Shown here: positions 7,500 to 26,795 of the stretch, piece after piece | Layout: each line of letters begins with the position of its first letter | How positions within the stretch are numbered: position 1 is the first letter of the stretch | Source: Planctomycetaceae bacterium | Lineage (GTDB): Bacteria > Planctomycetota > Planctomycetia > Planctomycetales > Planctomycetaceae | Reading direction: 5' to 3' | NCBI GenBank assembly: GCA_021732845.1 | Contig: JAKFUF010000001.1 | Location: 62,001 to 126,000 of the forward strand | Length of the DNA: 64,000 bases | Made by a program: the position numbers and the translations under genes | Notes under the pieces: generated by a model | What the model was told of the DNA's origin: nothing | Databases searched by the model: none | The model's input: only the letters and a program-made list of their open reading frames with translations

Positions 7500-7653
7500 G
7501 GGAGACCTGAATGTGGAAGGGCATGCCAGCCACGGCAGACCCCGGTCGCGTGCGATTCATGCACAGGCGGAGGGCTGCGGCTGCACTCGAAGCAGAAATC
7601 ACCACTGCGGGCGAAGCCGGCGCAGGATGAACCGAGTGAGCGTCTGCTGCCTG

Positions 7654-8384: not shown

Positions 8385-8389
8385 CGGCG

Positions 8390-9907
8390 TCAGCGGAGCA
8401 GCGGGCGGGAGAGGGCGGCGGCTAGGCGGAAGAAGACCGGCTGCCAGTCGTTCCAGGCCAGGAACCGCAGCACCAGTTTGCGGCCGGTCGTCAGCACCTG
8501 GCAGGGGATCAGGAGCCATGTGTTGATGAAGGTGCGGAACTCCATGTTCAGCAGGGTCCGCTTCTGTTCCTGGTGCCTTTCCTTCCAGCGGCCGGTCTCC
8601 GGCAGCCGCAGCGCCATCCAGGCCTTGAGGTTCCAGGCCAGCGACGTGATCAGCATGTAGGCGGCGTTGGACGTCAGGTTGTCCACCGGGGCGTGCAGCG
8701 CGCGGCACGTCTTGAGCTGGGCCACCAGGTTTTCCTGGTTGCAGCGGTCGTTGGCGGAGAACACGACCTGCTCCGCCGTCAGGCTGGTGTCGTTGGTGAT
8801 GTAAAAGAAGTATTCATACCGCTCGAACAGCTTCCCCTGCCGTGGGTCGCTGACAAGGAGCTTCTTGCGGACAATCACCATCCGGTAGGTGTGGCGGCAC
8901 GCCACGGGCCGGTAGTCCATCTCGGCCACCCACTCCTCCAGCAGCCGGATGTCCTCGAACCCCCGAGCCTCCACGATCGGCTGCTTGACCTCGGCCGGCT
9001 TCGCGCGTGGCTCCGTCTTCACCTGGTACTTCGCCGGCCGCTTCAGCTTGTGCCACGCGGATTCCGGCAGGTCTTCGGCCATGGCGTTTACGCTCTTGTT
9101 CCGGTCATAGCCGAACACGAAGAACACGTCGCCCTGCGCGTGCCACCGGTCCAGGTGCGTGGTCTGGGAGAAGTCGGTGTCGCCGCGGAGGACGATGCGG
9201 CGGAAGCCCGCGGCCCGGCACATGTCGATGCACTGGTCAAACTGTGCGGCGGCCCCCTCGTGGCTGGGCCGGTTCCCCGAACGGTTCACAAGCCGCAGCA
9301 CCTCGCCGGTATTGGCCAGCGTCAGCACCAGCGGGTGATACCCCCACACCCCCTTGTACGAGATGTCGATTCCCTGCTTGCACTCGGCTCCGGTCTCCAC
9401 CATCGTCCCGTCGGCCTCGATGCGGGCCTCGTGAAAGAACGCCTCCGGCTGCATGGCCCAGATCCGGCGGCGGCACACATCGAAGGCGGCCTGCAGGCTC
9501 TCCAGGTGGTGCGTCTGGAACCTTCGGCAGAAATCTCCCGCCGTGGTCGGGTCTGGAATCCGTTCCGCCCCCAGCATGTTGAGGTACGCCAGATCCCGCC
9601 GCCGGATTTCCAGATCCTGCAGGCACTGCCCCTGGCAGAAGGCGTTGTAGGCCAGGCTCAGCACATGGTCCGACTCGTGGTACGGCAGATGCATCTTGAA
9701 CAGCTTCAGCCGCGAATTGATGGCTTCCGCCAGGCCCAGCTCCTGCACCAACTGATGCACCAGTCCAATCCCGCCATAGGCGGTGGCCGTCGCCCGCCCC
9801 GCCAGTTCGTAATGCGGCGTGGGACCGCCAATCACCGGCTGCGACATGTCGTCGGGATAGTTCCCCTTGTCGAGCCGCCCCAGAATTTCACGCTTGCGGC
9901 TGTCCAT
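8390..9907 (-). CDS. IS1380-family transposase
   Basis: 505 residues from ATG at 9907, full length for the family and open throughout. DDE transposase of the IS1380 group. Visible features are the N-terminal region with ATAYGGIGLVHQLVQELGL, the first acidic residue in ARIEADGTMVETGAE, a second in IVLRGDTDFSQ, and the C-terminal region with NDRCNQENLVAQLKTCRALH and a conserved NLKAWM. It catalyses cut-and-paste movement of its own element. It separates the metal-efflux operon from the ArsR-led run. I could not identify its terminal inverted repeats or target duplication, so the element limits are uncertain. It is distinct in sequence from the two IS1380 copies at 53783 and 56613. Confidence 0.9.
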   Translation of the reverse strand: MDSRKREILGRLDKGNYPDDMSQPVIGGPTPHYELAGRATATAYGGIGLVHQLVQELGLAEAINSRLKLFKMHLPYHESDHVLSLAYNAFCQGQCLQDLEIRRRDLAYLNMLGAERIPDPTTAGDFCRRFQTHHLESLQAAFDVCRRRIWAMQPEAFFHEARIEADGTMVETGAECKQGIDISYKGVWGYHPLVLTLANTGEVLRLVNRSGNRPSHEGAAAQFDQCIDMCRAAGFRRIVLRGDTDFSQTTHLDRWHAQGDVFFVFGYDRNKSVNAMAEDLPESAWHKLKRPAKYQVKTEPRAKPAEVKQPIVEARGFEDIRLLEEWVAEMDYRPVACRHTYRMVIVRKKLLVSDPRQGKLFERYEYFFYITNDTSLTAEQVVFSANDRCNQENLVAQLKTCRALHAPVDNLTSNAAYMLITSLAWNLKAWMALRLPETGRWKERHQEQKRTLLNMEFRTFINTWLLIPCQVLTTGRKLVLRFLAWNDWQPVFFRLAAALSRPLLR

Positions 9908-10370: not shown

Positions 10371-10772
10371 ATGACAACCGGGGCCGATTCCCGATCCACG
10401 GCGGAATTGCTGAAAGCGTTTTCTCATCCGACGCGTCTGGCCATCCTGCAGGAATTGTTGGCTGGTCCCAAGTGCGTCACGGACATGGAGGAGTTGCTCC
10501 CCGCGCGGCAAGCCAACATCTCGCAGCATCTGGCCGTGCTGCGTCACGCCCAATTGGTGGACTACGCCCAGGACGGATCGTTGCGGTGCTACTACCTGAG
10601 TCGCCCCAAGTTGGTTGAGGACATGTTGGCGCTGGTCGGTCGCGGCGATCCGGTGGTGAAGCGGACGCCAGCGGAAATCCAAGCGGACAAGGAGCGGTTG
10701 GCCAAGGCCAAGGCATGCGCGACCGACACCAAGACAAAGCCGACCGCTCGCCGGAGGAAGGTCGCACCATGA
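10371..10772 (+). CDS. ArsR/SmtB-family transcriptional repressor
   Basis: 133 residues, ATG at 10371 with AGGAGG six bases upstream. Winged-helix DNA-binding domain: AELLKAFSHPTRLAILQELL, then the recognition helix region RQANISQHLAVLRHAQLVDY and the wing (DGSLRCYYL). It lacks the CVCDL arsenic site of classical ArsR but has Cys35 (PKCVTDMEE), Cys73 (LRCYY) and Cys116. Two or more spaced cysteines without CxC would also suit a thiol or sulfide/persulfide switch, as known for some ArsR-family regulators; that fits the sulfur genes that follow but is inference. The C-terminal 30 residues are Lys/Arg-rich. Its stop overlaps the next gene's start (ATGA), so the two are cotranslated. Confidence 0.9.
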   Translation: MTTGADSRSTAELLKAFSHPTRLAILQELLAGPKCVTDMEELLPARQANISQHLAVLRHAQLVDYAQDGSLRCYYLSRPKLVEDMLALVGRGDPVVKRTPAEIQADKERLAKAKACATDTKTKPTARRRKVAP

Positions 10773-11938
10773 CCGAGCGGGTTTATCTCGACTACAACGC
10801 CACAACTCCCCTCGCGCCTGAGGTTGTCGCGGCGATGTTGCCATACCTCGACGAGGCGTATGGCAATCCTTCGAGTCTGCATTGGGCGGGCCTGCCAGCG
10901 CGGGATGCCGTGGAAATTGCCCGCTCGCAGGTGGCCGCCCTGTTGTGCTGCGACGCCACGGAGATCGTCTTCACGTCGAGTGGGACCGAAGCCAACAACC
11001 AGGTGATCAAGGGGTTGTTCTTTTCCCGCCGCGCCGCGGGAAAGCCCGTTCACGTCATTACCAGCCAGATCGAGCATCCGGCCGTGCTGGAGCCGTGCCG
11101 GTTCATCGAGGGACTGGGTGCCGAGGTCACGCGGTTGCCCGTTGATGGGAGCGGCCGAGTTGATCCCGCTGACATCGCGGCCTCGATCCATCCGCACACC
11201 GCACTGATCTCGATTATGCACGCCAACAACGAGGTGGGGACGCTGCAGCCCATCTTGGAGATTTCACAGATTGCTCACGAGCATGGCATCTTGTGCCATA
11301 CGGACGCCGCCCAGACGGTCGGCAAGATCGCCACGGAGGTCGAAGCCCTCGGGGTCGATCTGCTCTCGGTCGCAGGGCACAAACTGTATGGCCCCAAAGG
11401 GGTCGGGGCGCTGTTCATCCGCGAAGGCGTGGAGTTGGAGCCGCTGTTGCATGGGGCCGGCCACGAAGCCGGGCGTCGTGCGGGAACGGAGAACGTTCTC
11501 GCCATCGTCGGCCTCGGGGCCGCCTGCGAACTCGCTCAAGACTGGATCGACGACGATCAAGTGCGGGTGCTGCGAGACGAGTTGTGGAAGCGGCTTCAAG
11601 ACCAGTTCGGTGATCGCGTCGTCCTGAACGGCCATCCCGAACTCCGATTGCCCAACACGCTCAATGTGAGTTTTCTCGGCCATCACGGTTACGAGATCCT
11701 GGCCCGCCTGCCGAACCTCGCGGCATCTACGGGTTCGGCGTGCCACGCTGGGAGCACGCACATCAGTCCGGTGTTGGAGGCGATGAATACACCTCACAAC
11801 GTTGGCCTCGGGGCTGTGCGATTCAGCCTCGGGCGCACCAGCACGCCAAATGAAATCGAAGCGGTGGTGGAAATGGTCGCTGGCTGCCTCCGAGACACGC
11901 ACTGTTTGCCGATCCCAACCGTTAAGGAGAACGTCTGA
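10769..11938 (+). CDS. Cysteine desulfurase (NifS/IscS class V aminotransferase)
   Basis: 389 residues from ATG at 10769, overlapping the regulator stop by four bases. PLP-dependent enzyme that takes sulfur from cysteine (or selenium from selenocysteine) as an enzyme-bound persulfide, releasing alanine. Visible motifs: N-terminal VYLDYNATTPLAP, the cofactor region SSGTEANNQVIKG, HANNEVGTLQP, the PLP lysine in SVAGHKLYGPKG (Lys205) and the active cysteine in STGSACHAGSTHIS (Cys325). The loop around Cys325 is of the NifS/IscS-like type. No IscU or Fe-S scaffold gene is adjacent. Instead DsrE and rhodanese genes follow in the same run, which suggests supply of persulfide sulfur to that pathway. 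Confidence 0.92.
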   Translation: MTERVYLDYNATTPLAPEVVAAMLPYLDEAYGNPSSLHWAGLPARDAVEIARSQVAALLCCDATEIVFTSSGTEANNQVIKGLFFSRRAAGKPVHVITSQIEHPAVLEPCRFIEGLGAEVTRLPVDGSGRVDPADIAASIHPHTALISIMHANNEVGTLQPILEISQIAHEHGILCHTDAAQTVGKIATEVEALGVDLLSVAGHKLYGPKGVGALFIREGVELEPLLHGAGHEAGRRAGTENVLAIVGLGAACELAQDWIDDDQVRVLRDELWKRLQDQFGDRVVLNGHPELRLPNTLNVSFLGHHGYEILARLPNLAASTGSACHAGSTHISPVLEAMNTPHNVGLGAVRFSLGRTSTPNEIEAVVEMVAGCLRDTHCLPIPTVKENV

Positions 11939-14235
11939 TGTCCCGGTTGAGCATCCACACGGCACTCACGATATTGGCGGTTTGCGTCGCAAACGCGCAC
12001 GCCTCCGAGGAGCTGTTTACGCGCCGCGTGGCTCCGATTCTTTCGGAGCGCTGTGCCGCCTGCCACAACCCCGACAAACGCAGCGGTGGCTTGGACGTGA
12101 CGAGCCGCACTTCGCTGCTGAAGGGAGGCGACAGCGGCGCGGCCATTGCACCCGGAAATCTGAAGAAGTCTTCACTGCTGGAAATGGTGAGTGGCGACGA
12201 GCCGGAGATGCCGAAGAACTCTAAGCCGCTGACGGCAGGTCAACTGGCCGACCTGCGCGCCTGGATCGAAGCCGGAGCCGAATGGCCGGCCGGAGTTCGC
12301 GTGACTGCCGAACTTTGGTCCTTGCGACCCGTTGCCAGGCCGGAAGTCCCGCATGTGGAACACTCGGAATGGGTTGCCACACCGGTCGATGCCTTTGTCC
12401 TGCAACGGCTGGAAGAGTCGTCCTTGAAACCGGCTCCGCGTGCCGACGGAATTACGCTGATCCGCCGTGCGACGTTCGACCTGCACGGGTTGCCTCCGAC
12501 GCCTGACGAGGTCGACGCCTTCCTGGCAGACTCGTCTCCCGACGCCTATGCCCACCTCATCGACCGGCTGCTTAAGTCGCCCCGCTATGGCGAACGCTGG
12601 GGTCGGCACTGGCTCGACCTGGCGAACTACGCCGACTCGCATGGCTTCGAACTGGACTACGCGCGGCCCCATGCGTGGCATTACCGCGACTACGTCATTC
12701 AGTCCTTCAATGGCGACAAGCCCTACGATCAATTCCTGCGCGAACAACTGGCCGGGGACGTGCTCGTTCCAGCCAACCCGGACGCGGTGATCGCCACGGG
12801 CTTTCTGGCCGCCGGTCCGTGGGACTATTCCGGCTATGTGACGGCGATTCAGGGAACAGCCGCCAGCCGAGGGACGCGGCTGCAGGACCTCGACAACATG
12901 CTCACGACGGTCATGACGACGTCCGTCGGCCTGACCGTCGGGTGTGCGAAATGTCACGACCACAAGTTCGATCCGATTCCTCAGAAGGACTATTACAGCC
13001 TGCAGGCTGTCTTTGCAGGAGTTCGTCGCGGAGACCGGATCAGTCGTGGGGACGCGACGGAAGAGCAGGCTCGGCGGATGGAACAGATCCGGCTCGACGT
13101 CCACAAGAAGCGCATCGGGGTTGCGGAGATCGACGCGCTGGATTCCACATCCCTCACCGACGAAAAGGTGCAGAATCGGGTCAAGCTGTGCGCGGAGATC
13201 GCGGCCCTGGAGGCCGAGTACGCGAAACTGCCTGAGGTCGAGTTGACGTATGCCGTCATCCCGGAGTCTCCGTCGCCGACCCACGTCCTGCACCGGGGGG
13301 ATACGGAAGCTCCACGGGATGAGGTGGCTCCCGCCGCATTGAGTGCGGTTCGGGGCCTGCCTGCCGAACTGACTGCGTCAAATACACCCGAAGGGGCGCG
13401 CCGCCTGGCGCTGGCCCACTGGCTCACCGATCCAGCCAACCCGTTGACGGCCCGCGTGATGGTCAATCGACTGTGGCATCACCACTTCGGGCGCGGCCTC
13501 GTAGGCACACCGGGTGATTTTGGCTTCAACGGCGAACGCCCTTCACATCCCGAGTTGCTCGACTGGCTGGCGACCGAGTTTCAACAGCGGAAATGGTCGA
13601 CCAAGGAGATGCACCGTCTCATCATGCTCAGCAGCACGTATCAGCAGTCAGTCCGCCATCATCGGGATGCGGCCGCCGTCGATGCCGCCAACCGACTGTT
13701 GTGGCGGATGAATCGTCGACGGTTGTCGGCCGAGGAAGTACGTGACTCCGTTCTGGTCGTCAGCGGCACGCTGGACCTGACGATGGGTGGCCCCGCCGAC
13801 ATGGCGTTCCGCTACCAGTTCCGCAAGTCGCCCGTCTACGACTATTTCGACAGCACCAATCGCCCGAACCGGCAGCGGCGCTCCGTCTACAACTTTATCG
13901 TCCGCAGCACGCCCAACCCGTTCATGGACGTGCTGGACTTTCCAACGCCGTCGAGTTGCACGCCGGCCCGCAATACGACGAACACCCCCCTGCAGTCGCT
14001 GTCGTTGCTCAATGATCCCTTCGTGATCCAGCAGGCGGACCATTTCGCCGCGCGGCTTGCCAAGGCTCATTCCGACGATGTGCGTGGGCAGGTGAAGTCC
14101 GCGTACCGGCTGGCGTTCGGCCGCGTGCCGTCTCCGACCGAGATCGATCGCGCCTCGGAGTTCATCGCCGAACGGCAGTTGTTCCAGTTCTGCCGGGCCA
14201 TCTTCAACGCCAACGAATTCCTGTACGTCGACTGA
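11938..14235 (+). CDS. Planctomycete PSCyt1/DUF1549/DUF1553 protein
   Basis: 765 residues, start ATG at 11938 sharing one base with the previous stop; AAGGAGA lies just upstream. Signal peptide (TALTILAVCVANAHA), then a cytochrome-c-like motif CAACH in a PSCyt1 domain (LSERCAACHNPDKRSGGLDV). Next is DUF1549, with DGITLIRRATFDLHGLPPT and RYGERWGRHWLDLANYADS, containing a second CxxCH (VGCAKCHDHKFDPI). The C-terminal part is DUF1553 (NPLTARVMVNRLWHHHFGRG, STYQQS, NTPLQSLSLLNDPF). Such proteins are very common in planctomycetes, exported, probably haem-binding, and of unproven function. It always travels with a DUF1501 gene, as here. It is somewhat short for the family (often 800-1100). Why it sits in an ArsR-led sulfur run is unknown. 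Confidence 0.9.
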   Translation: MSRLSIHTALTILAVCVANAHASEELFTRRVAPILSERCAACHNPDKRSGGLDVTSRTSLLKGGDSGAAIAPGNLKKSSLLEMVSGDEPEMPKNSKPLTAGQLADLRAWIEAGAEWPAGVRVTAELWSLRPVARPEVPHVEHSEWVATPVDAFVLQRLEESSLKPAPRADGITLIRRATFDLHGLPPTPDEVDAFLADSSPDAYAHLIDRLLKSPRYGERWGRHWLDLANYADSHGFELDYARPHAWHYRDYVIQSFNGDKPYDQFLREQLAGDVLVPANPDAVIATGFLAAGPWDYSGYVTAIQGTAASRGTRLQDLDNMLTTVMTTSVGLTVGCAKCHDHKFDPIPQKDYYSLQAVFAGVRRGDRISRGDATEEQARRMEQIRLDVHKKRIGVAEIDALDSTSLTDEKVQNRVKLCAEIAALEAEYAKLPEVELTYAVIPESPSPTHVLHRGDTEAPRDEVAPAALSAVRGLPAELTASNTPEGARRLALAHWLTDPANPLTARVMVNRLWHHHFGRGLVGTPGDFGFNGERPSHPELLDWLATEFQQRKWSTKEMHRLIMLSSTYQQSVRHHRDAAAVDAANRLLWRMNRRRLSAEEVRDSVLVVSGTLDLTMGGPADMAFRYQFRKSPVYDYFDSTNRPNRQRRSVYNFIVRSTPNPFMDVLDFPTPSSCTPARNTTNTPLQSLSLLNDPFVIQQADHFAARLAKAHSDDVRGQVKSAYRLAFGRVPSPTEIDRASEFIAERQLFQFCRAIFNANEFLYVD

Positions 14236-14278
14236 CGCCGTCGCGACGCGGGCCGTCAACTTACGCAAGGAGCACTCC

Positions 14279-15745
14279 ATGCCAGACTTTCGACTCTGTG
14301 ATCATCAGCCGCGACTGGTCGACCGACGCAATTTCCTGTCGACCATCGGCGGCGGATTTGGAGGGATGGCGCTTTCCGCCTTGCTGGCCGGGGAGCAACG
14401 CGCGAATGCTGGCGATCTGGATCGGACCCGCCCGGCAGGTGCGTTTCCCAACTTCACTCCCAAGGCGAAGCAGGTCATCCAGATCTTCGTCAGTGGAGCG
14501 ATGAGCCAGATCGACACCTTCGACTACAAGCCGGAACTCGCCAAGTGGGAGGGCAAGGCGTTCGAGCCGGGCGGAAAGGTGGAACTGTTCGAGAGCATTC
14601 CTGGGAAGATGCAGCCGAGCTATTGGCCGTTCCAGCAGCACGGCGAGTGCGGCCGGTGGGTCTCGTCGCTCTTCCCACACCTGGGAACCTGCGTGGATGA
14701 GATGTGCTTCATCCACTCGATGGTCTCCAAGAGCAACGTCCACGGTCCCGCGTTGTTCATGATGAACTCTGGATTCGTCCTGCCCGGCTTCCCGTCGATG
14801 GGCTCCTGGGTGACGTACGGCCTGGGTACGGAGAACAAGAACCTGCCGGCGTTTGTCGTATTGCCTGATCCGCGCGGTTTTCCGATGAACGGACCGATCA
14901 ACTGGGGAACGGGTTTTCTGCCAGCGACCTACCAGGGGACGGCGTTGGCCACGCGCGACTCCATGCCGCCGATTCACAATCTGTTTCCGCCCACTGATCC
15001 GCGCATGTCCCCGGACGCGGAACGCCGCACGCTTGAATTCCTGCGAACTCTGAATGCGGAGCATGCCAGCCAGCGTCCTGGCGACAGCGACCTGGAAGCA
15101 CGGATCAACGCCTACGAACTGGCGGCTCGCCTCCAGCTTTCCGCACCCGAAGCGGTCGACATTTCTCAGGAGAGCGCGGCGGTCCATCGACTCTATGGAA
15201 TCGACGATCCCGCCACTGCGCCGACAGGTCGCCAATGCCTGATGGCCCGGAGGCTGGTCGAACGCGGCGTCCGGTTCGTCCAGGTCTGGTCCGGCGCGCT
15301 GAACGCCGGGTTCCCGCGTCAGAACTGGGACGGTCATGAAGACATGGTCAACAACCACGGGCGCGAGGCGAAACGGTTCGATCAACCGGTCGCCGCGTTG
15401 CTCAAGGATCTCAAGGCCCAGGGAATGCTCGACGAGACTCTCGTGATCTGCACGTCAGAGTTTGGGCGGATGTGTTGTTCACAGGGCGGAAAAGGTCGCG
15501 ACCACAACCCCTTCGCGTTCACGTCCTGGCTTGCCGGCGGCGGAATCAAGGGAGGCACCGCTCACGGGAAGAGCGATGAGTTCGCCTACAAGACCGTCAC
15601 CGATCCCGTCTACTGCTACGACCTGCACGCGACGGCGCTGCACCTGCTCGGCATCGACCATACGAAGCTGACTTACCACCACAACGGAATCGATCGCAGG
15701 CTTACCGACGTGCATGGCCATGTGATTCACGACATTCTGAGCTGA
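14279..15745 (+). CDS. Tat-exported DUF1501 protein
   Basis: 488 residues from ATG at 14279 (AAGGAG nearby). The N-terminus carries a Tat-type signal, DRRNFLSTIGGGFGGMALSA, so it is exported folded. The body has the DUF1501 (alkaline-phosphatase-like superfamily) landmarks: FVSGAMSQIDTFDYKPEL near the start, PSMGSWVTYGLGTENKNLP, VRFVQVWSG, WDGHEDMVNNHGR, and near the end TLVICTSEFGRMCCSQGGKG and GRDHNPFAFTSWLAGGGIKG. It is encoded 43 bases after the PSCyt1 gene and is presumably its partner. Its substrate is unknown. Confidence 0.9.
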   Translation: MPDFRLCDHQPRLVDRRNFLSTIGGGFGGMALSALLAGEQRANAGDLDRTRPAGAFPNFTPKAKQVIQIFVSGAMSQIDTFDYKPELAKWEGKAFEPGGKVELFESIPGKMQPSYWPFQQHGECGRWVSSLFPHLGTCVDEMCFIHSMVSKSNVHGPALFMMNSGFVLPGFPSMGSWVTYGLGTENKNLPAFVVLPDPRGFPMNGPINWGTGFLPATYQGTALATRDSMPPIHNLFPPTDPRMSPDAERRTLEFLRTLNAEHASQRPGDSDLEARINAYELAARLQLSAPEAVDISQESAAVHRLYGIDDPATAPTGRQCLMARRLVERGVRFVQVWSGALNAGFPRQNWDGHEDMVNNHGREAKRFDQPVAALLKDLKAQGMLDETLVICTSEFGRMCCSQGGKGRDHNPFAFTSWLAGGGIKGGTAHGKSDEFAYKTVTDPVYCYDLHATALHLLGIDHTKLTYHHNGIDRRLTDVHGHVIHDILS

Positions 15746-15807
15746 TGCCCTGAGAGTGAAAGGATGATTGATCCATGTTTCAAACTCGTCTCTCGAAGGA
15801 AAACCTC

Positions 15808-16707
15808 ATGTCAATGATTCAGATCGGGCAGTGGATGCCCAAGATGGCGATCCTTGGCGCGACGGTCATGATGGCACTGTCCACCACTGGTTGTTCACGC
15901 GAAGACACTGTCGCAAACGCGAAGGGGAATGCGCACGCCGCCGTGGCGATTCCGCCAACCGATCACGCGAAGTCACAAGATACCGGGACGCCGGTCGGGA
16001 GCGCTGGCGACTTTGACGCGATTCTGAAGAAGTATGTCGATGGTGACTATTTCGACTACGCCGGACTGAAGGCGAGTCCAGACGACTCGAGACGATTCGA
16101 CTCGTTCCTCAGTTGGCAGGCCAAAGCCGATGTCTCGAAAATGTCGCGGGACGACCAGATCGCGTTCTACATCAACGCCTATAACGCTTGCTGCATCAAG
16201 GCCATTCTAGATCACTACCCCGTTAAGACACCCAAAGACATTCCGGGCTTCTTCGATCAGCTCAAATTCGTAGTTGCGGGCGAAAGCCTGACAATCAACG
16301 AAATCGAATACGACCGATTGATCGCGAGATATCAAGACATGCGCGCGCACTTCGCGGTTGTGTGCTCTGATCGGTCTTGCCTCCCGTTGAAACCAGGCGC
16401 GTACACCGGTAAGGCCCTCGACCTGGAACTTGAAGGTGCAGCCACCAAATTCGTGAACAGCCGCCAGCACTTTCGGGTCGACCACGAGAAGAAGGTGGTC
16501 TATGTCTCGAAGATTTTTGACTGGTACGGACAGAAGTTCCTCAAGGATGAAAAGCGGCCTGTTGCGGGCAGCCGGCCGGAACTTTACTTGCTCCAGTGGC
16601 TCGATGACGAGACGCGAAAGCTGCTGGAATCCGGCGAGTACCGGTTGGAGTTCATCGAATGGGACTGGACGCTCAATGAACGCCCCAAGACCAAGGAAAG
16701 CCGCTAG
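15808..16707 (+). CDS. DUF547 lipoprotein
   Basis: 299 residues if started at the ATG at 15808, which has AAGGA eight bases upstream; an ATG at 15775 would add 11 residues. A lipoprotein signal (MPKMAILGATVMMALSTTGC) is followed by a low-complexity linker and the DUF547 domain: FDYAGLKAS, ISFYINAYNA-type motif (here IAFYINAYNACCIKAILDHY), SLTINEIEYDRLI, HFAVVCSDRSCLPL and VYVSKIFDWYGQKF. DUF547 has a papain-like fold relationship in some analyses, but no activity is known to me. It belongs to the ArsR-led run by strand and spacing. Confidence 0.85.
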   Translation: MSMIQIGQWMPKMAILGATVMMALSTTGCSREDTVANAKGNAHAAVAIPPTDHAKSQDTGTPVGSAGDFDAILKKYVDGDYFDYAGLKASPDDSRRFDSFLSWQAKADVSKMSRDDQIAFYINAYNACCIKAILDHYPVKTPKDIPGFFDQLKFVVAGESLTINEIEYDRLIARYQDMRAHFAVVCSDRSCLPLKPGAYTGKALDLELEGAATKFVNSRQHFRVDHEKKVVYVSKIFDWYGQKFLKDEKRPVAGSRPELYLLQWLDDETRKLLESGEYRLEFIEWDWTLNERPKTKESR

Positions 16708-16841
16708 GACTTGACGGCGCTTATCGACGAGGACGGCGTCGCGCCGCACTCGGTGGTCTGTCGAGACGGCCAAGCTGTTGTAGTGGTTCAACTGTTGATG
16801 CTTGGGCACTGCGGAATTCAGAGAATTGTGAGCTGAGCTTC

Positions 16842-17669
16842 ATGGAAACACACAGACCGGGAGATGGAGTGAATGGACACCCGCTATTCGACCACCCGCT
16901 GAATGCGACCAGTCAGTTTCGGGCGGAGGAACTCGTGGCGTCGGTGCGGCGGATCAGGCACCTAGACGGCACTCCTGTTCCGGAGATCTGCATTCTGGAA
17001 TTCGACGGCGACCTGACCGATGCACTGATTGCACGTGGCGAAGCCCGCCCCTTCCCAGAGTGGCCTTGCTTCCACACGGCGATGTGGCTCTGGGAATCAG
17101 GTGATCTGTCCTGTGGGGTCGTGGCGCGAACGATCGGTGGACCGTTTGCCGTACTTGTGGCCGAGCAATTACTGGTGTGCGGCGCTCAAGTGGTCATCGG
17201 CATTACGTCGGCGGGGCGTGTCTCCGACTTCACACCCGTCCCCGGTATTGTCGTTGCGGACAGTGCGCTTCGCGATGAAGGGACGTCAATGCATTACCTG
17301 CCACCCAGTCGCACCGTCGAAGCCGACCGGCAACTGGCGGATGCCCTCGTGAAGAGTCTCGCCACGGAATCATTGCCGCTTGTCCGTGGAACCGTTTGGA
17401 CGACGGATGCCCCCTACCGGGAAACTGCAGAACAACTGCAACGCCACAGCCGCGAAGGAATCCTGGCGGTCGAAATGCAGGCGGCTTCGCTCTTCGCGTT
17501 TGGGCAGCGGCAGGAGTTTCCCGTTGGCCTCGTCGCGCACGTCACAAACGGGGGTGACGAAAACCAGAACTTCGACAAAGGCGGCGGCGACACCGACTAC
17601 CGACTGCTGCAGGCCGTCTGCCGAGGAGCCCGGCGGTTTCTCGATGGGCGTCAGAATCTGCAGCGATGA
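16842..17669 (+). CDS. Nucleoside phosphorylase-family protein
   Basis: 275 residues from ATG at 16842 (weak ribosome site, so the start is uncertain). PNP_UDP_1 fold: glycine-rich phosphate loop near ARTIGGPFAVLVAEQLLVCG, the central GITSAGRVSDF, and the nucleoside/ribose-binding GILAVEMQAASLFAFG near the C-terminus, where the conserved Glu and Met contact ribose. It would cleave a purine or pyrimidine nucleoside with phosphate. In a run with two methyltransferases it could salvage adenosine or methylthioadenosine formed after SAM use; this is inference, and a housekeeping uridine or purine phosphorylase is the alternative. Confidence 0.8.
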   Translation: METHRPGDGVNGHPLFDHPLNATSQFRAEELVASVRRIRHLDGTPVPEICILEFDGDLTDALIARGEARPFPEWPCFHTAMWLWESGDLSCGVVARTIGGPFAVLVAEQLLVCGAQVVIGITSAGRVSDFTPVPGIVVADSALRDEGTSMHYLPPSRTVEADRQLADALVKSLATESLPLVRGTVWTTDAPYRETAEQLQRHSREGILAVEMQAASLFAFGQRQEFPVGLVAHVTNGGDENQNFDKGGGDTDYRLLQAVCRGARRFLDGRQNLQR

Positions 17670-17702
17670 CAATTTCATTCGCATTCCAGAAGGGATCTTC
17701 CG

Positions 17703-18056
17703 ATGGCCAAGTTTTTGTTCATCCTCAATAGCGCGCCGTATGGCAACGAACACTCGTTCAACGGTCTGCGTCTGGCGGACAGTCTTGTTCGACACGAGGG
17801 CAACGATGTCCAGGTCTTCCTGATTGGTGACGCTGCGGCCTGTGCCAAGCGCGGCCAGACGGTGCCGCACGGGTTCTACAACATCGAGTTGATGTTGCAC
17901 CCGATCCTGCGGCACCAAGGGCGGATTGGCGTTTGTGGGTCGTGCATGGACGCCCGCGGAATGACTGACGCGGAACTCGCTGAGGGCTGCCACCGCAGCA
18001 GCATGGAGGAACTCACGAACTGGACGTTGTGGGCGGACAAGGTGCTCGTGTTCTGA
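17703..18056 (+). CDS. DsrE-family sulfur-carrier-like protein
   Basis: 117 residues, ATG at 17703 with AAGGGA upstream. Small alpha/beta DsrE/YchN-type fold: N-terminal strand KFLFILNSAPYGNE, then SFNGLRLADSLV, VQVFLIGDAAACAK and the conserved cysteine loop GVCGSCMDARGM, ending with a strand DKVLVF. Proteins of this family pass persulfide sulfur between enzymes in sulfur oxidation and tRNA thiolation. The gene lies 33 bases after the phosphorylase and 59 before the rhodanese fusion, so a role handing sulfur from the cysteine desulfurase to the rhodanese domain is plausible. No DsrF or DsrH partner is present. Confidence 0.85.
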   Translation: MAKFLFILNSAPYGNEHSFNGLRLADSLVRHEGNDVQVFLIGDAAACAKRGQTVPHGFYNIELMLHPILRHQGRIGVCGSCMDARGMTDAELAEGCHRSSMEELTNWTLWADKVLVF

Positions 18057-18115
18057 CGCACGCTGACGCGGATGCAGCGATTGGGTACGGGGTGGAACTC
18101 GAGAGGGGACTTTTC

Positions 18116-19189
18116 ATGACGGATACGCAAGACAACCCGACGGTATCGATCACGCCGGAGTCGGCCGTGACGCAGATGCGGCAGCAGAATGCCGTGATCA
18201 TCGATGTGCGTGAGCCGCACGAGTACCACCGCGAACATATCGCGGGGGCCTTGTCGCTGCCGCTCGCGGAGCTAACTTCCGAGCAGTTGCCGAACGGGAA
18301 GATGGCCATTCTCTACTGCGGAGCCGGAAAGCGTTCCTGCACCGCCGCCCTGCAATTGAATGCGTCGGGAAACCGAAACGTCGCCATTGTTGAGGGTGGA
18401 ATCGCGGGTTGGAAAGCGGCGGGACTGCCGACGACAAAGTCCTTGCAGGCATTTGCCCCCGAGGAGATCAAGGCCGCAGTTGCAGATCGCTATGGACGCG
18501 TCGCGACAGCGCCCGGCGATAAGTTCAACTTCCCCGTCGGGCGGCGATTCGCCGAAAGCGTCGGCTACGACGCCGCACTCCTGGATCGCCTGCCGCAGGG
18601 CTTGTGGGAGTCGTTCACGGGCGCGGGGAATCCTCAGGCATTCGTGGACGCGCAGCCCGGTGAGACAGTCCTCGATCTGGGCTGCGGAGCCGGACTGGAT
18701 CTGTGTTTGTACGCGCAGAGGGTGGGGCCGACTGGGAAAGTGGTCGGCCTTGATTTGTCGTCAGCGATGCTCGACAAGGCCCGCCATAATCTCGCCGAGG
18801 CGGGGATTGCCAACGTCGAGTGGCTGCATGCGCCGGCCGATGCCATTCCGCTCCCTGACGGTTCCGTCGATCTCGTGACCGCCAACGGCATCTACAACCT
18901 GTCGCCCGACAAGGAAGCCGTCATGCGCGAGGTGACTCGCGTGCTGAAGCCGGGGGGCCGCACGGTTTTTGCGGAGATCGTGCTTAAGAGCGAACTGCCG
19001 TGCGAAGTGCGGCGGGAGATTGACGACTGGTTCCGCTGCATCGGCGGGGCGTTGGTTCAGGAAGACTTTCTGGCGCGCCTCGAACGGAACGGCTTGAGTC
19101 GTCCCCGCGTGCTGTGGGTCGGCCGCAATGCTCGGACTGGGCACGAACTGTCGTTGTGCGCCGTCATTCGCGCGGAGAAGCAACCATGA
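18116..19189 (+). CDS. Rhodanese - SAM-dependent methyltransferase fusion (ArsM-like)
   Basis: 357 residues from ATG at 18116 (GAGAGGGG upstream). The first 105 or so residues form a single rhodanese domain: NAVIIDVREPHEYHREHIAG, active loop LYCGAGKRSC with the catalytic Cys, and VEGGIAGWKAAGLPT. The rest is a class I methyltransferase most like arsenite methyltransferase ArsM: AVADRYGRVA, ETVLDLGCGAGLDLCLYA, VGPTGKVVGLDLSSAMLDKA, INLSPDK-type motif (here IYNLSPDKEAVMREVTRVLK). The paired cysteines that bind arsenic are missing: no Cys after the YG motif, and the usual NC before INLSPDK is NG. Methylation of a thiol, sulfide or selenide instead of arsenite is therefore suspected. Its stop overlaps the dsbB-like start. 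Confidence 0.85.
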   Translation: MTDTQDNPTVSITPESAVTQMRQQNAVIIDVREPHEYHREHIAGALSLPLAELTSEQLPNGKMAILYCGAGKRSCTAALQLNASGNRNVAIVEGGIAGWKAAGLPTTKSLQAFAPEEIKAAVADRYGRVATAPGDKFNFPVGRRFAESVGYDAALLDRLPQGLWESFTGAGNPQAFVDAQPGETVLDLGCGAGLDLCLYAQRVGPTGKVVGLDLSSAMLDKARHNLAEAGIANVEWLHAPADAIPLPDGSVDLVTANGIYNLSPDKEAVMREVTRVLKPGGRTVFAEIVLKSELPCEVRREIDDWFRCIGGALVQEDFLARLERNGLSRPRVLWVGRNARTGHELSLCAVIRAEKQP

Positions 19190-19785
19190 GCAACATCGAG
19201 CTCGTTCCAATCGCGTCCTCCGGTCGCCAACGCCTGGCAATGTGGAATCTCGCCGTGCTCGCGCTGGCCGCAGTCGCCGCTGGCGGCAGCGTGTACTTGA
19301 GCCTCGGGCTTGGTCTCAAAGCCTGCCCGCTCTGTTTCTACCAGCGTTCGTTCGCCATCGCGGCGGTCCTCGTGTTGGCGATGCTGCTCTGGCTGGATGG
19401 CCTCCGTTCATCTCGTGCATGCCTCGTCGCCTTGCCCCTGTCAGCGTGCGGATTGGGAGTAGCGGTGTTTCATGTCTACCTGGTGCAGGTTGGGAAGCTG
19501 GAATGTCCGCCGGCGTTATTCGGCTGGGGAGATGGGCCGATGCAGAGTCTGGCCATCTTTGCCGCGTTGACAATGGTCAGTTTTGCTGGGGCGTGGTCGG
19601 TACGCCTGTCGGAACAGCGTGGCGGATTCCCTGTCATCATGGCCGCCGTGCTCATGGGTGTGGGCGCGAGCTGGGCCTGCATCGCGAGTGCGCCTCCCTT
19701 ACCACCAACTCCAGCTCAACCCTACGACCCGGCCAAGCAGCCGTTCGACATGTGCCGTCCCCCATTCCGTGGAGTTTTGAAATGA
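19186..19785 (+). CDS. DsbB-like disulfide-forming membrane protein
   Basis: 199 residues, ATG at 19186 overlapping the previous stop (ATGA). Four membrane spans and the DsbB signature ACPLCFYQRSFAIAAVLVLA, with the first cysteine pair in CPLC. A later cysteine lies in KLECPPALFGWG, and a C-terminal cysteine in FDMCRPPF. DsbB re-oxidises periplasmic thiol oxidoreductases with quinone. Here it may instead supply an oxidised thiol partner for the sulfur or methylation chemistry of the run. No dsbA is adjacent. Confidence 0.85.
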   Translation: MSNIELVPIASSGRQRLAMWNLAVLALAAVAAGGSVYLSLGLGLKACPLCFYQRSFAIAAVLVLAMLLWLDGLRSSRACLVALPLSACGLGVAVFHVYLVQVGKLECPPALFGWGDGPMQSLAIFAALTMVSFAGAWSVRLSEQRGGFPVIMAAVLMGVGASWACIASAPPLPPTPAQPYDPAKQPFDMCRPPFRGVLK

Positions 19786-20531
19786 TGCGCTGGCTAATCC
19801 TGCTCTACGGTGCAGTCGCCTATGTGACCTTCCTGGCCTCGTTCCTGTACGCCGTCGGTTTCGCTGGCGGGTTGGTCGTTCCGAAGACCATCGACTCCGG
19901 ACCGGAAGCTGCAACAACGACGGCCATTCTGATCAACGTCGCCGTGCTCAGCCTGTTCGCCGTTCAGCACAGTGTCATGGCGCGGCCGTTCTTCAAACGC
20001 TGGTGGACGCAAGTCATTCCACCGGCAGCCGAACGGAGTACTTACGTGCTGGCGAGCAGCCTACTCCTGTTCTTGTTGTACTGGCAGTGGCGACCACTTC
20101 CCGGCGTGGTCTGGAATGTCACGCAGCCCGCCTTGGCCGGCGTGCTGTGGGCGGTCTTCGGAATCGGCTGGTTAATCGTGCTGGTCTCGACGTTCCTCAT
20201 CAATCATTTTGACCTGTTCGGGCTCCGTCAGGTGTTCTTGCATTTCACGGGACGGACCTACACACCGATTCCGTTTCAGACGCCCTGGCTTTACCGCGTC
20301 GTCCGGCATCCCATCATGGTCGGGTTCCTGATTGCGTTTTGGGCCACGCCCACGATGACGCAGGGGCATTTGCTCTTCGCGGCAGTTGTGACCGCCTACG
20401 TGCTGGTGGCCCTGCAACTCGAAGAGCGGGATCTGCGCGCGTACCACGGAGAAACGTATTCCGAGTATCAACGGCAGGTCCGCATGCTGGTGCCGCTCCC
20501 CGGAAATCGCAGCCGGAAACCGGCGGAGTAA
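19782..20531 (+). CDS. mddA: MddA-like methanethiol S-methyltransferase (membrane, ICMT/NnrU type)
   Basis: 249 residues from ATG at 19782, four bases inside the dsbB stop, with GGAG upstream. Six or so membrane spans. Sequence landmarks match the MddA family: FAVQHSVMARPFFKRWWTQV, PPAAERSTYVLASSLLLFLL, WRPLPGVVW, LINHFDLFGLRQVF and the SAM-binding C-terminal part YRVVRHPIMVGFLIAFWATP with LVALQLEERDL. MddA methylates methanethiol to dimethyl sulfide with SAM and can act on methylselenol. It is the clearest functional clue in the run and fits an upstream thiol-producing methyltransferase. Family assignment is from remembered sequence patterns; other isoprenylcysteine-methyltransferase-like proteins are the alternative. 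Confidence 0.75.
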   Translation: MMRWLILLYGAVAYVTFLASFLYAVGFAGGLVVPKTIDSGPEAATTTAILINVAVLSLFAVQHSVMARPFFKRWWTQVIPPAAERSTYVLASSLLLFLLYWQWRPLPGVVWNVTQPALAGVLWAVFGIGWLIVLVSTFLINHFDLFGLRQVFLHFTGRTYTPIPFQTPWLYRVVRHPIMVGFLIAFWATPTMTQGHLLFAAVVTAYVLVALQLEERDLRAYHGETYSEYQRQVRMLVPLPGNRSRKPAE

Positions 20532-20538
20532 CCCGCGC

Positions 20539-21411
20539 ATGTCCAACGAGGTGGAGATCGCCGTACGGCTGGGGTTCTTCGGGGGCGTTCTGCTCGTCAT
20601 GACGCTCTGGGAGTTGTTCGCGCCCCGCCGTCCGCTGACGGTCCGCAAGGCACCCCGCTGGGCCAGCAACCTCGGACTGGTGGTTCTGAATGTCGTCCTG
20701 TCCCGGTTACTCGTCCCGATCACGGCAGTGGCTGCGGCCATCTTCGCCCAATCTCGCGGCTGGGGTGTATTGCATCTGATTGACTGGCCATCGTGGGTTG
20801 AGTTGGCTCTCGCGGTCCTGGCTTTCGATCTCGCGATCTACCTGCAACATGTGATGTTCCATGCCGTCCCCCTGCTGTGGCGGCTGCACCTGGTCCACCA
20901 CGCGGACCTTGACTTCGACGTCACGACGGGGCTGCGCTTCCACACCCTGGAGATTCTGCTATCGGCACTGGTCAAACTGGCGGTCGTGGTGGTGATCGGG
21001 CCATCTGCGGTGGCGGTCGTGATCTTCGAAGTACTCCTGAACGCCACCGCGATGTTCAATCACAGCAACGTCCGGATGCCAGCCTGGCTCGACGCAGCGC
21101 TGCGCTGGCTGGTGGTCACCCCCGACATGCACCGCGTCCACCATTCGGTGATCCGACGCGAGGCCAACAGCAACTTCGGCTTTAACCTGCCGTGGTGGGA
21201 CTTCCTGCTTGGAACTTACCGCGGGCAGCCGCGCGAGGGGCACGAAGCGATGACGATCGGCGTCTCCCACCTCCGCGATGAGTTGGAAGTCGACCGGTTG
21301 CCAAGGATGTTGATCATCCCTTTTCGGTCTCCAGCCGGAACCTATTCGATAGGAAGCGAGAAGGAATCGGAACAACTATCGGCCGGTTCGACTCCGAAAG
21401 ATCCACCATGA
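20539..21411 (+). CDS. Sterol desaturase / fatty-acid hydroxylase family protein
   Basis: 290 residues, ATG at 20539, only seven bases after the mddA-like stop. Membrane di-iron oxygenase family with the expected histidine boxes: YLQHVMFH, WRLHLVHHADLDFD, FNHSNVRMPAW and MHRVHHSVI. The N-terminal region has several membrane spans. It would hydroxylate or desaturate a lipid with oxygen. Substrate is not apparent and its link to the sulfur genes is by operon position only. Its last bases overlap the start of the broken methyltransferase. Confidence 0.88.
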   Translation: MSNEVEIAVRLGFFGGVLLVMTLWELFAPRRPLTVRKAPRWASNLGLVVLNVVLSRLLVPITAVAAAIFAQSRGWGVLHLIDWPSWVELALAVLAFDLAIYLQHVMFHAVPLLWRLHLVHHADLDFDVTTGLRFHTLEILLSALVKLAVVVVIGPSAVAVVIFEVLLNATAMFNHSNVRMPAWLDAALRWLVVTPDMHRVHHSVIRREANSNFGFNLPWWDFLLGTYRGQPREGHEAMTIGVSHLRDELEVDRLPRMLIIPFRSPAGTYSIGSEKESEQLSAGSTPKDPP

Positions 21412-23326: not shown

Positions 23327-24850
23327 ATGCAGGTCACGGCTCAATCCCTCGGTCGCCTGCCGATTCCGCTGCTCCTGGCCGCCGTGGTTTTGAGTAGCAG
23401 TGGATGCCAGACGGCTCGTCGAAAGACAATGACCTCCGTCCCTGCCCGCCCGTCGCAAGGCAAAATTAATCGTAGCGATCAACAGTCCGACATCTCTAAG
23501 GTACAGCCGGCTGGACACACCGACGACGAAGCGCGTCCCGAGGTCATCAGTACGATTCCTCCGACGCCAACTCGTGACGACGATTCTGTCCGAGAGGCTC
23601 CAAGACGACATCCGAATCCCGAACTGCCCACTGACGACCTTTTCGTAACGCTTGACGTTCTGGACGCTTTGACGCTGGCCAGACTTGTCGAGCAACGAAA
23701 CTCGTCGCTCCAGGCGATGTATGCCAGCTGGCAGGCAGCGGCGGCCCGCTACCCGCAGGAGATTGCGCTCGACGATCCCATGCTGGACGTCATGATGGCT
23801 CCCGCAAGTTTTGCGGGGAACAGTAACGTCCAGTCGTCCTGGGCTCTACAAGGATCGCAGAAGCTTCCTTGGAAGGGAAAGCGAGAAGCTCGCGGCAACA
23901 TGGCGAGCCAGAATGCCCAGGCCGCCGCTTTGGATGTGGAAGACACTCGGCTCCAACTGACGCTGGCCTCCCGAGTGGCATTTGCAGATTACTTATTGGC
24001 ACAGCGAACGCAGGAGTTGAACAGTACCGAGATCAAACTGCTGACTGAGCTGAAGGCGGTGGCGTTAACCCGTTACGAGACAAACCAGACTCCCCAGCAA
24101 GATGTGCTGCAGGCGGAAGTGGACCTTTCGGAAGCACGGCGGCGTGGCGTCGAAGCCACTCGAGCCCACCGCGTGGCAGTGGCGAGGATCAACACCTTGC
24201 TTCAAAGGCCGCCCCGCTCCCCCTTGCCGCCCCCATCCGAGACCGATGCCACCGCGGAGTCGCTGCCCGACGATGACGACCTGGCGGCCAGGGCGCTGCA
24301 GCAGCGTCCCGATCTGTCGGCACGGTCCGCCCGAATTGCGGCGGAACAGGCGGCCTACTGTCTCGCGCTGCGGGAATTCTATCCCGACATCGAGGTCTAC
24401 GGCCGTTATGATCGGTTCTGGTTTGATCGAGAACAACAAGGCAGTGTCGGGATCAAGTTGAACTTGCCCATCCAGCGAGATCGCCGCCGCGCCGCGGTCG
24501 AAGAGGCGCTCGCAAAGATTGCGCGCATGCGAGCGGAGTATGAGTCCGATGTGGCGAAGATCCAGTTCGACGTGCAGGCCGCTTCGGCTCGAGTGCAGGA
24601 ATCGCGGCGGACCACGGAGCTGTACTCCACCGAGATTTTAAAGGCCGCTGAGCAGAACGTCGCTTCGGCGCGGGCGGGCTACGAAGCCGGATCAGTCAGC
24701 TTCTTGACGCTGGTTTCCGCTCAGCGCCAGCTCATTGATGCTCGCCAGCGCATGAACGAGGCCCAGGCGGAATACCAGCGGCAATTGGCCGAGCTCGAAC
24801 GGGCGATTGGGGCTCCGCTGGACGTAGAGACGCCGTTTACGCACGAATGA
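23327..24850 (+). CDS. TolC-family outer-membrane efflux lipoprotein
   Basis: 507 residues from ATG at 23327. Lipoprotein signal ending in LSSSGC, then a long polar linker of about 90 residues, and the TolC/OEP repeat pair. Landmarks: ARLVEQRNSSLQAMYASWQA, the barrel segment WALQGSQKLPWKGKREARGN, VLQAEVDLSEARR, RPDLSARSARIAAEQAA, and in the second half FWFDREQQGSVGIKLNLPIQ and ASARAGYEAGSVSFLTLVSA. It forms the outer-membrane channel of the tripartite pump with the adaptor and CusA-like protein downstream, in CusCBA-like order. Confidence 0.92.
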   Translation: MQVTAQSLGRLPIPLLLAAVVLSSSGCQTARRKTMTSVPARPSQGKINRSDQQSDISKVQPAGHTDDEARPEVISTIPPTPTRDDDSVREAPRRHPNPELPTDDLFVTLDVLDALTLARLVEQRNSSLQAMYASWQAAAARYPQEIALDDPMLDVMMAPASFAGNSNVQSSWALQGSQKLPWKGKREARGNMASQNAQAAALDVEDTRLQLTLASRVAFADYLLAQRTQELNSTEIKLLTELKAVALTRYETNQTPQQDVLQAEVDLSEARRRGVEATRAHRVAVARINTLLQRPPRSPLPPPSETDATAESLPDDDDLAARALQQRPDLSARSARIAAEQAAYCLALREFYPDIEVYGRYDRFWFDREQQGSVGIKLNLPIQRDRRRAAVEEALAKIARMRAEYESDVAKIQFDVQAASARVQESRRTTELYSTEILKAAEQNVASARAGYEAGSVSFLTLVSAQRQLIDARQRMNEAQAEYQRQLAELERAIGAPLDVETPFTHE

Positions 24851-25034
24851 GGCCTTCTTCGGAAACACGCCGACAAACTGTTTCGTTTTCAAGCGGACTC
24901 GCGTTGAACCGTGCGGCCCCATAGAATTCTTACCGGCAGCCCCTGTCTGCACCGCCGGGAGTTTTTGTCCGCCCTATCCTGACGGAGATTGTCGTCGGGC
25001 GGTGCGTCCATACTCCACCCTCAGGGGCTGTCTC

Positions 25035-26765
25035 ATGGCCATCAGCCGAACCGTCATCCGCAATGGCATCGGTGCGCTGGTGGTGTTCACGATTGTGCTC
25101 TCGGCCATCGCTTTTTGGCCTGGCCGCGTGCCCCGCCAAGTAGCGGGTGCGGGGATCTGGACGTGCTCCATGCACCCGCAGATCCGCATGGATCATTTTG
25201 ATCGCTGCCCGATCTGTGGGATGGACCTCATCCCGGTGAAGACCAGCACCGGGGGTGCTGTCGACCATACTGAGCATGCGGATCATTTGCAGCTCTCGGC
25301 GCACGCTCGCCAGATGGCGCGCGTGGCGACGACCAAGATCGAACTGCGACCGTTGCAGCGAGAGATTCGCACGGTCGGCAAGATCGAGTTCGACGAGACC
25401 CGCATGGCGCAGATTGCGAGCCGGGTCGATGGCCGCGTGGATCAAGTGTTTGCCGACTTCACCGGCACAATGGTGAAGAAGCAAGACCACCTGGTCAAAC
25501 TCTATAGTCCGGATCTGGTCGCGACCCAGGAGGAGTTCCTCGTGGCGACTCGCCGGGAACAGGAACTCAAATCGAGTACTGGCAGTGCGTTGTCGTTGGC
25601 AGCCAGCGCCAGGCGCAGGTTGCAGCTGTGGGGAGTCACCGACAACCAGATTGCGGAAATCCTCAAGACCGGTCACCCCGAGACGCACATGATTATTCAC
25701 GCTCCGATCGGCGGAACCGTCGTTGAAAAGATGGTTCGCACCGGTCAGTACGTGAAGCAGGGGGACATGCTCTACACGATTGCCGACCTGGACCACGTCT
25801 GGCTGATTGTTGACGTTTATGAAACGGACTTGCCCTGGGTTCGGTTTGGACAGTCGGTGCAAGTGACGCTCGAAGGTGATCCAGCCGTCTCCTTCGTTGG
25901 CCAGGTCGGCTTTATCGAACCGGTCTTGAACGAACAGACAAGAACAGTCCGCATCCGCGTGATCATCAAGAATGAAGACCGAAAACTCAGACCCGGCATG
26001 TTCGCGCAGGCCGTGATTCGGGTGCCCGTCATGCCTGACGGAACACCGGCTCCCACCGGGCTGGAAGGCAAATTCGCCTGCCCAATGCACCCTTATGTTG
26101 TGAGCGACGCGCAGGTTCCTTGCCGGGTCTGTGAAATGTCCTTGGAAAAGATTCCGGGTAAGCCAGTCGACCTGGATCAGCCACCACTCGTCCTGGCTGT
26201 GCCTGCGGAAGCAGTCCTGACGACTGGCCGCCGGCAGTTGGTGTATGCGGTGAAAGGGGATGGCCTTTACCAATTGGTGGAACCGCAACTCGGGCCGCGC
26301 GCCGGCGATTATTACCCAGTACTGCATGGGCTTGCGGCAGGGGATGAGGTGGTCAACCGCGGCAACTTCCTGCTGGATTCGCAGTTTCAGATCTCTGGCA
26401 AACCAAGCTTGTTGTATCCCGAGGGGATGGTCGGTGGCGGACGCGCGGGCCACGATCACGGCGGCGGGACGCTGCCCACAAAAGATCCTGTCAGTTCGTC
26501 ATCTCCGTCGCCGTCTGCCACGGAACAGAATCTCGGCAAATTGCCGCCGGCGGATCGCGAGGCCGCCCGCCAACAGGCCCTTTGCCCGGTGACAGACAAG
26601 CCGCTGGGATCGATGGGGGTGCCAATCAAGCTCGACGTCGAAGGCCGCCCCGTCTTTGTGTGCTGTGCCGGCTGCACGGCCGTCATTCAGAAGGATCCCC
26701 AAGCGATCCTGAAAAAGCTCGCCCTGCCGAAACCGTCCGCGCCACATGGCGGCCACCAGAAATGA
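25035..26765 (+). CDS. CusB-type adaptor with heavy-metal-binding and TRASH-like domains
   Basis: 576 residues from ATG at 25035; an ATG at 25002 is in frame but out of line with the membrane anchor (IGALVVFTIVLSAIAFW). Directly after the anchor is a heavy-metal-binding domain, WTCSMHPQIRMDHF with CPICGMDLIP. The adaptor core follows (VGKIEFDETRMAQIASRVDG, HAPIGGTVVEKMVRTGQYVK, LDHVWLIVDVYETDLPWVRF). A second, degenerate metal motif lies in the middle (FACPMHPYVVSD, CRVCEMSLEKIPG). The C-terminus adds a TRASH/YHS-like module, CPVTDKPLGSMGVPI and FVCCAGCTAVIQKDP, nearly the same as the free lipoprotein at 61785. Cu/Ag is the likeliest substrate for such motifs. Confidence 0.93.
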   Translation: MAISRTVIRNGIGALVVFTIVLSAIAFWPGRVPRQVAGAGIWTCSMHPQIRMDHFDRCPICGMDLIPVKTSTGGAVDHTEHADHLQLSAHARQMARVATTKIELRPLQREIRTVGKIEFDETRMAQIASRVDGRVDQVFADFTGTMVKKQDHLVKLYSPDLVATQEEFLVATRREQELKSSTGSALSLAASARRRLQLWGVTDNQIAEILKTGHPETHMIIHAPIGGTVVEKMVRTGQYVKQGDMLYTIADLDHVWLIVDVYETDLPWVRFGQSVQVTLEGDPAVSFVGQVGFIEPVLNEQTRTVRIRVIIKNEDRKLRPGMFAQAVIRVPVMPDGTPAPTGLEGKFACPMHPYVVSDAQVPCRVCEMSLEKIPGKPVDLDQPPLVLAVPAEAVLTTGRRQLVYAVKGDGLYQLVEPQLGPRAGDYYPVLHGLAAGDEVVNRGNFLLDSQFQISGKPSLLYPEGMVGGGRAGHDHGGGTLPTKDPVSSSSPSPSATEQNLGKLPPADREAARQQALCPVTDKPLGSMGVPIKLDVEGRPVFVCCAGCTAVIQKDPQAILKKLALPKPSAPHGGHQK

Positions 26766-26795
26766 GGCCGCACTCGGCCGACGGAGACGTCCTGC

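Follow-up and report, generated by a model that had tools for sequence, protein, structure and literature searches.

Among the proteins closest to the one described here are the arsenite methyltransferases of the ArsM/AS3MT type. CmArsM binds As(III) via C72, C174, and C224 (PMC4211708), and these three cysteines are conserved in all ArsM of PMC5552862, where the entry rule was the presence of at least three out of four, C44 included. On the sulfur side, SAM-dependent methylation of H2S and methanethiol (MeSH) has been described for MddA, MddH, and MddM1/M2, and both compounds are methylated by SAM methyltransferases of the UbiE/UbiG type (PMC12904073). TPMT methylates hydrosulfide, polysulfides, and GSSH in a SAM-dependent manner (PMC13089183). 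A rhodanese-methyltransferase fusion or a desulfurase-methyltransferase fusion was not reported in the literature searched, which covered few subscription journals.

The window, i.e. the whole stretch of 64,000 nucleotides from a Planctomycetaceae bacterium that was analysed here, encodes a fusion of a rhodanese to an ArsM-like methyltransferase (MT) within a run of 11 same-strand genes that extends from 10371 to 21411. The spacing of the genes ranges from -4 to 134 bases, with 4-base overlaps of MT/DsbB and DsbB/MddA, and suggests that the run is co-transcribed; a scan for promoters and terminators stayed at chance level. The genes are given below in their order, with the two domains of the fusion protein on lines of their own.

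10371..10772, plus strand: ArsR/SmtB-family regulator, first of the run (PF01022; 71% to the ArsR encoded ahead of the MT in L039)
10769..11938, plus strand: NifS-type cysteine desulfurase with Cys loop ASTGSACH and PLP lysine AGHKLYG (PF00266, E 2.7e-74; 71% to the NifS adjoining the same MT in L038)
11938..14235, plus strand: PSD1-type planctomycete cytochrome/DUF protein, type named from sequence, overlapping the NifS stop (72% to the PSD1 protein that precedes the MT in L080)
14279..15745, plus strand: DUF1501-type protein, type named from sequence (82% to the protein encoded ahead of the MT in L080)
15811..16707, plus strand: DUF547 protein; start uncertain, 15775 possible (PF04784, E 8.9e-22)
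16842..17669, plus strand: PNP/UDP phosphorylase-superfamily protein (PF01048, E 6.7e-26; matches to MTA and uridine phosphorylases; Omnitrophota have homologues next to the MT)
17703..18056, plus strand: DsrE-family sulfur carrier with CGSC motif (PF02635, E 2e-23; in Omnitrophota the homologue, with CGSC conserved, immediately precedes the MT)
18116..19189, plus strand: rhodanese-MT fusion protein, 357 amino acids (ORF translation, domain matches, predicted structure)
18149..18430, plus strand: rhodanese domain, residues 12-105, active-loop Cys68 with codon 18317-18319 (PF00581, E 1.8e-17; YgaP-type PDB matches)
18458..19186, plus strand: ArsM-fold MT domain, residues 115-357, with RNARTGH at 337-343 (alignments, predicted structure)
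19186..19785, plus strand: DsbB-family membrane protein, start overlapping the MT stop (PF02600, E 1.2e-8; homologues beside Cys- and Sec-type MT loci L039, L097, and L101)
19782..20531, plus strand: MddA, methanethiol S-methyltransferase (NCBIfam NF045656, 364.9 bits against an equivalog cut-off of 270; profile positions 2-238 of 238)
20539..21411, plus strand: fatty-acid hydroxylase-family membrane protein, last of the run (PF04116, E 1.7e-27; homologues in L039, L097, and L101)

Cys35 and Cys73 of the regulator are invariant among planctomycete orthologues, and GPKCVTD replaces the CVC motif by which arsenic-sensing ArsR proteins are known; the orthologues carry CVT at this position, and CVM in L080. 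A BigR/SqrR identity of the regulator found no support, as relatives reached 45.8 and 59.6 where the cut-off is 155. The Cys loop and the PLP lysine of the desulfurase are kept in all complete desulfurases of relatives. As a guess, the phosphorylase could clear SAM by-products by SAH/MTA-type nucleoside processing. Elsewhere, the window holds the BREX defence genes BrxL, PglZ, PglX, BrxC, BrxB, and BrxA (33688-48266, minus strand; strong PADLOC matches) and two RND-type heavy-metal efflux gene sets that are Cus-like by sequence (2006-7499, minus strand, and 23327-30386, plus strand).

The fusion ORF is real and its match lies far beyond chance. A preliminary description, made from the sequence, had proposed an added N-terminal rhodanese with an active-loop Cys, and this was borne out: residues 14-102 match PF00581 at 64.1 bits (gathering score 22.2), and the loop YCGAGKRS, CGAGKR with Cys68, satisfies the CxxGxR active-loop pattern. 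The likeness of the other half to ArsM, claimed in the same place, also held. SAM-methyltransferase profiles match residues ~177-309, the closest solved structures are those of ArsM (5evj and 4fr0), and the predicted MT domain superposes on CmArsM 4fr0 with a Z of 25.3 over 206 residues at 31% identity. Most of the predicted MT domain had a pLDDT >90; the rhodanese half was of low confidence and is unreliable because there were no rhodanese rows in the alignment. The window protein has the fold, SAM motifs, and NLSPDK motif of ArsM/AS3MT, and the nearest NCBIfam profiles bear the name arsenite methyltransferase. However, it scored 199.9 bits against PRK11873, below the curated cut-off of 263, shows no match beyond CmArsM residue 281, and differs from ArsM in its N-terminal rhodanese and its sulfur-gene neighbourhood.

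A further difference lies in the arsenic-binding cysteines, of which the window protein keeps one out of four. C44 of CmArsM has no Cys counterpart (KFNFPVG), C72 corresponds to Ala170 (FTGAGNP, codon 18623-18625), and C174 to Gly258 (ANGIYNLSPDK, codon 18887-18889), with Gly at this site in all Cys-type family members listed, while C224 is retained as Cys308 (DWFRCIGGAL, Cys codon TGC at 19037-19039). The alignments to CmArsM therefore agree with the preliminary description on the missing Cys after the YG motif and on NG in place of NC in the NCVINLSPDK motif; its general statement that the arsenic cysteines are lacking is correct for C44, C72, and C174 and wrong for C224, which it had missed. 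Cys308 is invariant (27/27 family members), the sole other invariant Cys being Cys190 of the SAM motif. Cys348 is found in 25 of the 27 members and replaced by Ser in two; an alternative arsenite site made of Cys308 and Cys348 was weighed and not adopted, and the solved-structure profile alignment stopped before that strand. Conservation of Cys308 and the RNARTGH tail across two phyla indicates that the site is under selection, and the reading as an ArsM that has simply lost its activity was rejected. The same genome encodes a separate, classical ArsM-like protein with YGCG, SNC, and SGC cysteines at the C72, C174, and C224 sites (L007; contig C181, 694-1872, minus strand) and a DUF547 gene nearby.

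The MT family of the window is distinct and sharply bounded. Profile A1, built from the first seven members and searched over 397 genomes of the class, returned 13 loci at 377 bits or more, followed by a gap down to 221 bits, and the family was also present in 11 of 193 genomes of an Omnitrophota phylum sample. It comprises 27 rows from Planctomycetota and Omnitrophota with the invariant Cys308 and RNARTGH tail, and in most of its members the MT stands alone, without a rhodanese. In a quick tree of 78 rows with SH-aLRT support and without bootstrap, the 27 members form one group (support 100), the classical Cys/Cys ArsM make up one side of a branch with a support of 96, and relatives containing an in-frame UGA fall elsewhere; the order of these three groups was weakly supported. 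L040, titled Planctomycetales bacterium, falls within the Omnitrophota branch and is probably a mislabelled MAG.

Among the relatives, a NifS-type desulfurase and the same MT occur as a single protein in three distinct genes: L078/L079 (633 amino acids), L083 (646), and L084 (647).

7352-9253, minus strand: NifS-MT fusion gene in L078
7208-9109, plus strand: NifS-MT fusion gene in L079
7873-9813, minus strand: NifS-MT fusion gene in L083
8338-10281, minus strand: NifS-MT fusion gene in L084

L078 and L079 stem from genomes classed as different species (G602 and G480), and the 9.3 kb around the fusion gene are 99.96% identical, owing to a recent transfer or to assembly contamination; they were counted once. 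In L083 and L084, MddA directly follows the fusion gene. L078/L079 have a short fusion junction in which the start region of the unfused sister is preserved, L083/L084 have longer linkers, and the two pairs lie apart on the tree, which suggests two separate NifS-MT fusion events. NifS is also adjacent to the MT in L073, L075, L077, and L082 and lies in the same run in L080; among the 13 planctomycete loci, it is absent from L074 and L081 and truncated in L076. The gene orders are ArsR-NifS-MT in L073 (with MddA 2.2 kb further on) and L077, ArsR-NifS-rhodanese-MT in L075 and L082, ArsR-NifS-PSD1-DUF1501-rhodanese-MT in L080, MT-MddA in L081, and ArsR-MT-DsbB-fatty-acid hydroxylase in L074. The free-standing rhodaneses of L075, L080, and L082 were first counted as sulfur donors and then dropped: unlike the fused domain in the window, they start with a signal-peptide-like sequence and are therefore probably not cytoplasmic donors. 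Most of the Omnitrophota loci read have DsrE ahead of the MT, and a PNP-type phosphorylase is often encoded after it. One Omnitrophota genome has an ArsP_1 permease (PF03773; L111, 5608-6660, plus strand) that overlaps the MT gene by 4 bp, and a sulfur reading leaves this neighbour unexplained.

Linkage to MddA was counted from two class-wide searches using hits at E 1e-50 or better only, with the omission of a few low-scoring rows that had at least two in-frame stops or whose UGA match was weak. Of 33 loci of the Gly258 type, in Cys or Sec form, 12 had MddA within 5 kb, compared to none of the 94 other ArsM-like loci (Fisher p = 1.7e-8, without correction for relatedness), where 'other' was set by score and absence of an in-frame UGA and not by individual reading. 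Split by type, the linked loci were 5 of 13 from the window's own family (p 1.2e-5) and 7 of 20 with UGA. Genomes having MddA account for 27 of the 94 other loci. Eight of the 13 family loci are without MddA nearby, and in some genomes of the class that carry the family no MddA scores over the threshold.

These UGA (Sec) relatives are reportedly dealt with by Haft and Tolstoy in a 2025 mSystems paper. UGA occupies their C224 site and Gly, in one case Ala, their C174 site, which fits the selenoproteins of the 'UxxG' type that a 2026 review lists among arsenite methyltransferases (PMC13188914). The loci L096-L102, with Gly at the C174 site, adjoin MddA, and the name given to such selenoproteins is possibly wrong. 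Selenoproteins of this kind (profiles NF041537, NF041536, and NF047649) share with the window protein Gly at C174, V/L/A at C72, and a single Cys/Sec at C224 (UxxG resembling CIGG); likewise, MddA lies beside the UGA relatives, and two of their loci (L097 and L101) hold DsbB and fatty-acid hydroxylase homologues. In contrast, the window family has Cys instead of Sec, a clade of its own, and the RNARTGH tail, and the window protein, with its Cys codon, scored 229.7, 206.4, and 213.2 bits, far under the respective cut-offs of 510, 575, and 460. No SelD over the family cut-off was found in the window's own genome, which is 95.7% complete.

A sulfur substrate is supported because MddA, DsrE, and the NifS-type desulfurase share the run and because the same MT is fused to a desulfurase in relatives. 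The preliminary description had argued for a sulfur or selenium substrate handed over within one protein; sulfur was strengthened by this evidence, and selenium was weakened by the lack of a SelD over the cut-off. The best explanation, to which I would assign a probability of roughly 0.6, is that the window protein is an S-methyltransferase fed with persulfide or sulfide by donor handover, yielding methanethiol that MddA would turn into dimethyl sulfide. Leaving handover aside, a sulfur substrate is somewhat more probable, and a handover of sulfur from the rhodanese to the MT within one protein is plausible.

I infer the substrate, persulfide relay, role of Cys308, and product as follows. The cysteine desulfurase of the run (10769-11938) would take sulfane sulfur from cysteine, and Cys68 of the fused rhodanese would carry it as a persulfide, probably with DsrE relaying, to the ArsM-fold domain. 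There, Cys308 as the single retained thiol would stand where ArsM holds arsenic beside SAM; sulfide or a persulfide bound to Cys308 would be methylated by SAM, and reduction would release methanethiol to be converted into dimethyl sulfide by MddA, encoded two genes downstream. By analogy, I favour an MT that would work like the Mdd kind of sulfide/methanethiol methylation. Compared by description, MddH, MddM1, and MddM2 are soluble H2S/methanethiol S-methyltransferases with the proposed reaction (PMC12904073) and, like the window MT, belong to SAM-dependent class I, but MddM1/M2 are UbiG/UbiE-family enzymes of ~200 residues without carrier domains, whereas the window MT is ArsM-type with what would be dedicated sulfur donors. 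MddA is encoded in the run as the proposed next step of the pathway but belongs to an unrelated membrane family (NnrU/PEMT-like). Hydropersulfide methylation by TPMT is a precedent for methylating HS-, polysulfide, and GSSH, although this enzyme is mammalian, takes free substrates, and comes from a different family (PMC13089183).

Several observations stand against the best explanation: most family loci have no MddA nearby, an ArsP_1 permease overlaps the MT gene in L111, the free-standing rhodaneses are probably not cytoplasmic donors, the residue kept as Cys308 serves ArsM as an arsenic ligand, and regulators of the ArsR family frequently lie upstream. Arsenic or another metalloid could still be the substrate if a smaller set of thiols (Cys308 together with Cys348 or with a small thiol) sufficed to bind As(III) or MAs(III), with the sulfur carriers providing thiols or thiolating the arsenical. 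Besides the regulators, the ArsM fold with its retained C224 equivalent and the naming of the nearest NCBIfam profiles fit such a role, as does the overlapping ArsP_1 permease in L111. Arsenic is nonetheless unlikely: C44, C72, and C174 are lost, against the at-least-three-of-four rule (PMC5552862), Cys348 is Ser in two members, the PRK11873 cut-off is missed, the regulator has CVT and not CVC, a classical-cysteine ArsM is separately present in the genome, and the linkage is with MddA, desulfurase, and DsrE.

Alternatively, the window protein may be an ordinary thiol methyltransferase that acts on free H2S or alkyl thiols, with the rhodanese and desulfurase raising local sulfide or serving unrelated sulfur homeostasis. 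Here, the sulfur substrate is the same as in the best explanation and only the interdomain handover is dropped. This would agree with the known Mdd enzymes, which take free H2S and MeSH without carriers (PMC12904073), and with the family members in which the MT is found alone, but the MT is repeatedly fused to or tightly paired with sulfur-donor enzymes, apparently more than once, which makes this improbable.

Selenium is less likely. Cysteine desulfurases and rhodaneses are able to handle selenium, and the desulfurase could be a selenocysteine lyase, with the rhodanese carrying a perselenide, the MT forming methaneselenol, and MddA forming dimethyl selenide. Sister MTs with Sec at the Cys308 site also adjoin MddA, and a part of PMC13089183 describes methylation of selenite-derived anions by TPMT. 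However, besides the SelD result, the family has Cys and not Sec, and Sec in a sister enzyme is uninformative on its substrate. Finally, the acceptor might be a lipid or another metabolite, produced with the participation of DsbB and the fatty-acid hydroxylase, onto which sulfur would be transferred and then methylated. The genes of both partners recur beside Cys- and Sec-type MTs (L039, L097, and L101), but this reading is very doubtful, since the assigned role of MddA in methanethiol methylation requires no lipid acceptor, and no acceptor gene was identified.

Extending the S-methyltransferase reading to the whole clade of the ArsM fold with Gly at C174 and, at C224, a single Cys or Sec, selenoproteins named arsenite methyltransferases included, is more tentative: these could be persulfide S-methyltransferases, fed by desulfurase, rhodanese, or DsrE, that turn protein-bound persulfide into methanethiol for MddA in a channelled pathway from cysteine to dimethyl sulfide.

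If true, the proposed function of the window protein would give the MddA route to dimethyl sulfide a soluble, donor-coupled first step, in which sulfur becomes methanethiol, in Planctomycetota and Omnitrophota. It would also present a methyltransferase that draws its sulfur from protein-bound persulfide rather than from free sulfide. Relatives annotated as arsenite methyltransferases, including the selenoproteins with Gly/Sec sites, may not act on arsenic, which would affect arsM surveys conducted without a cysteine check.
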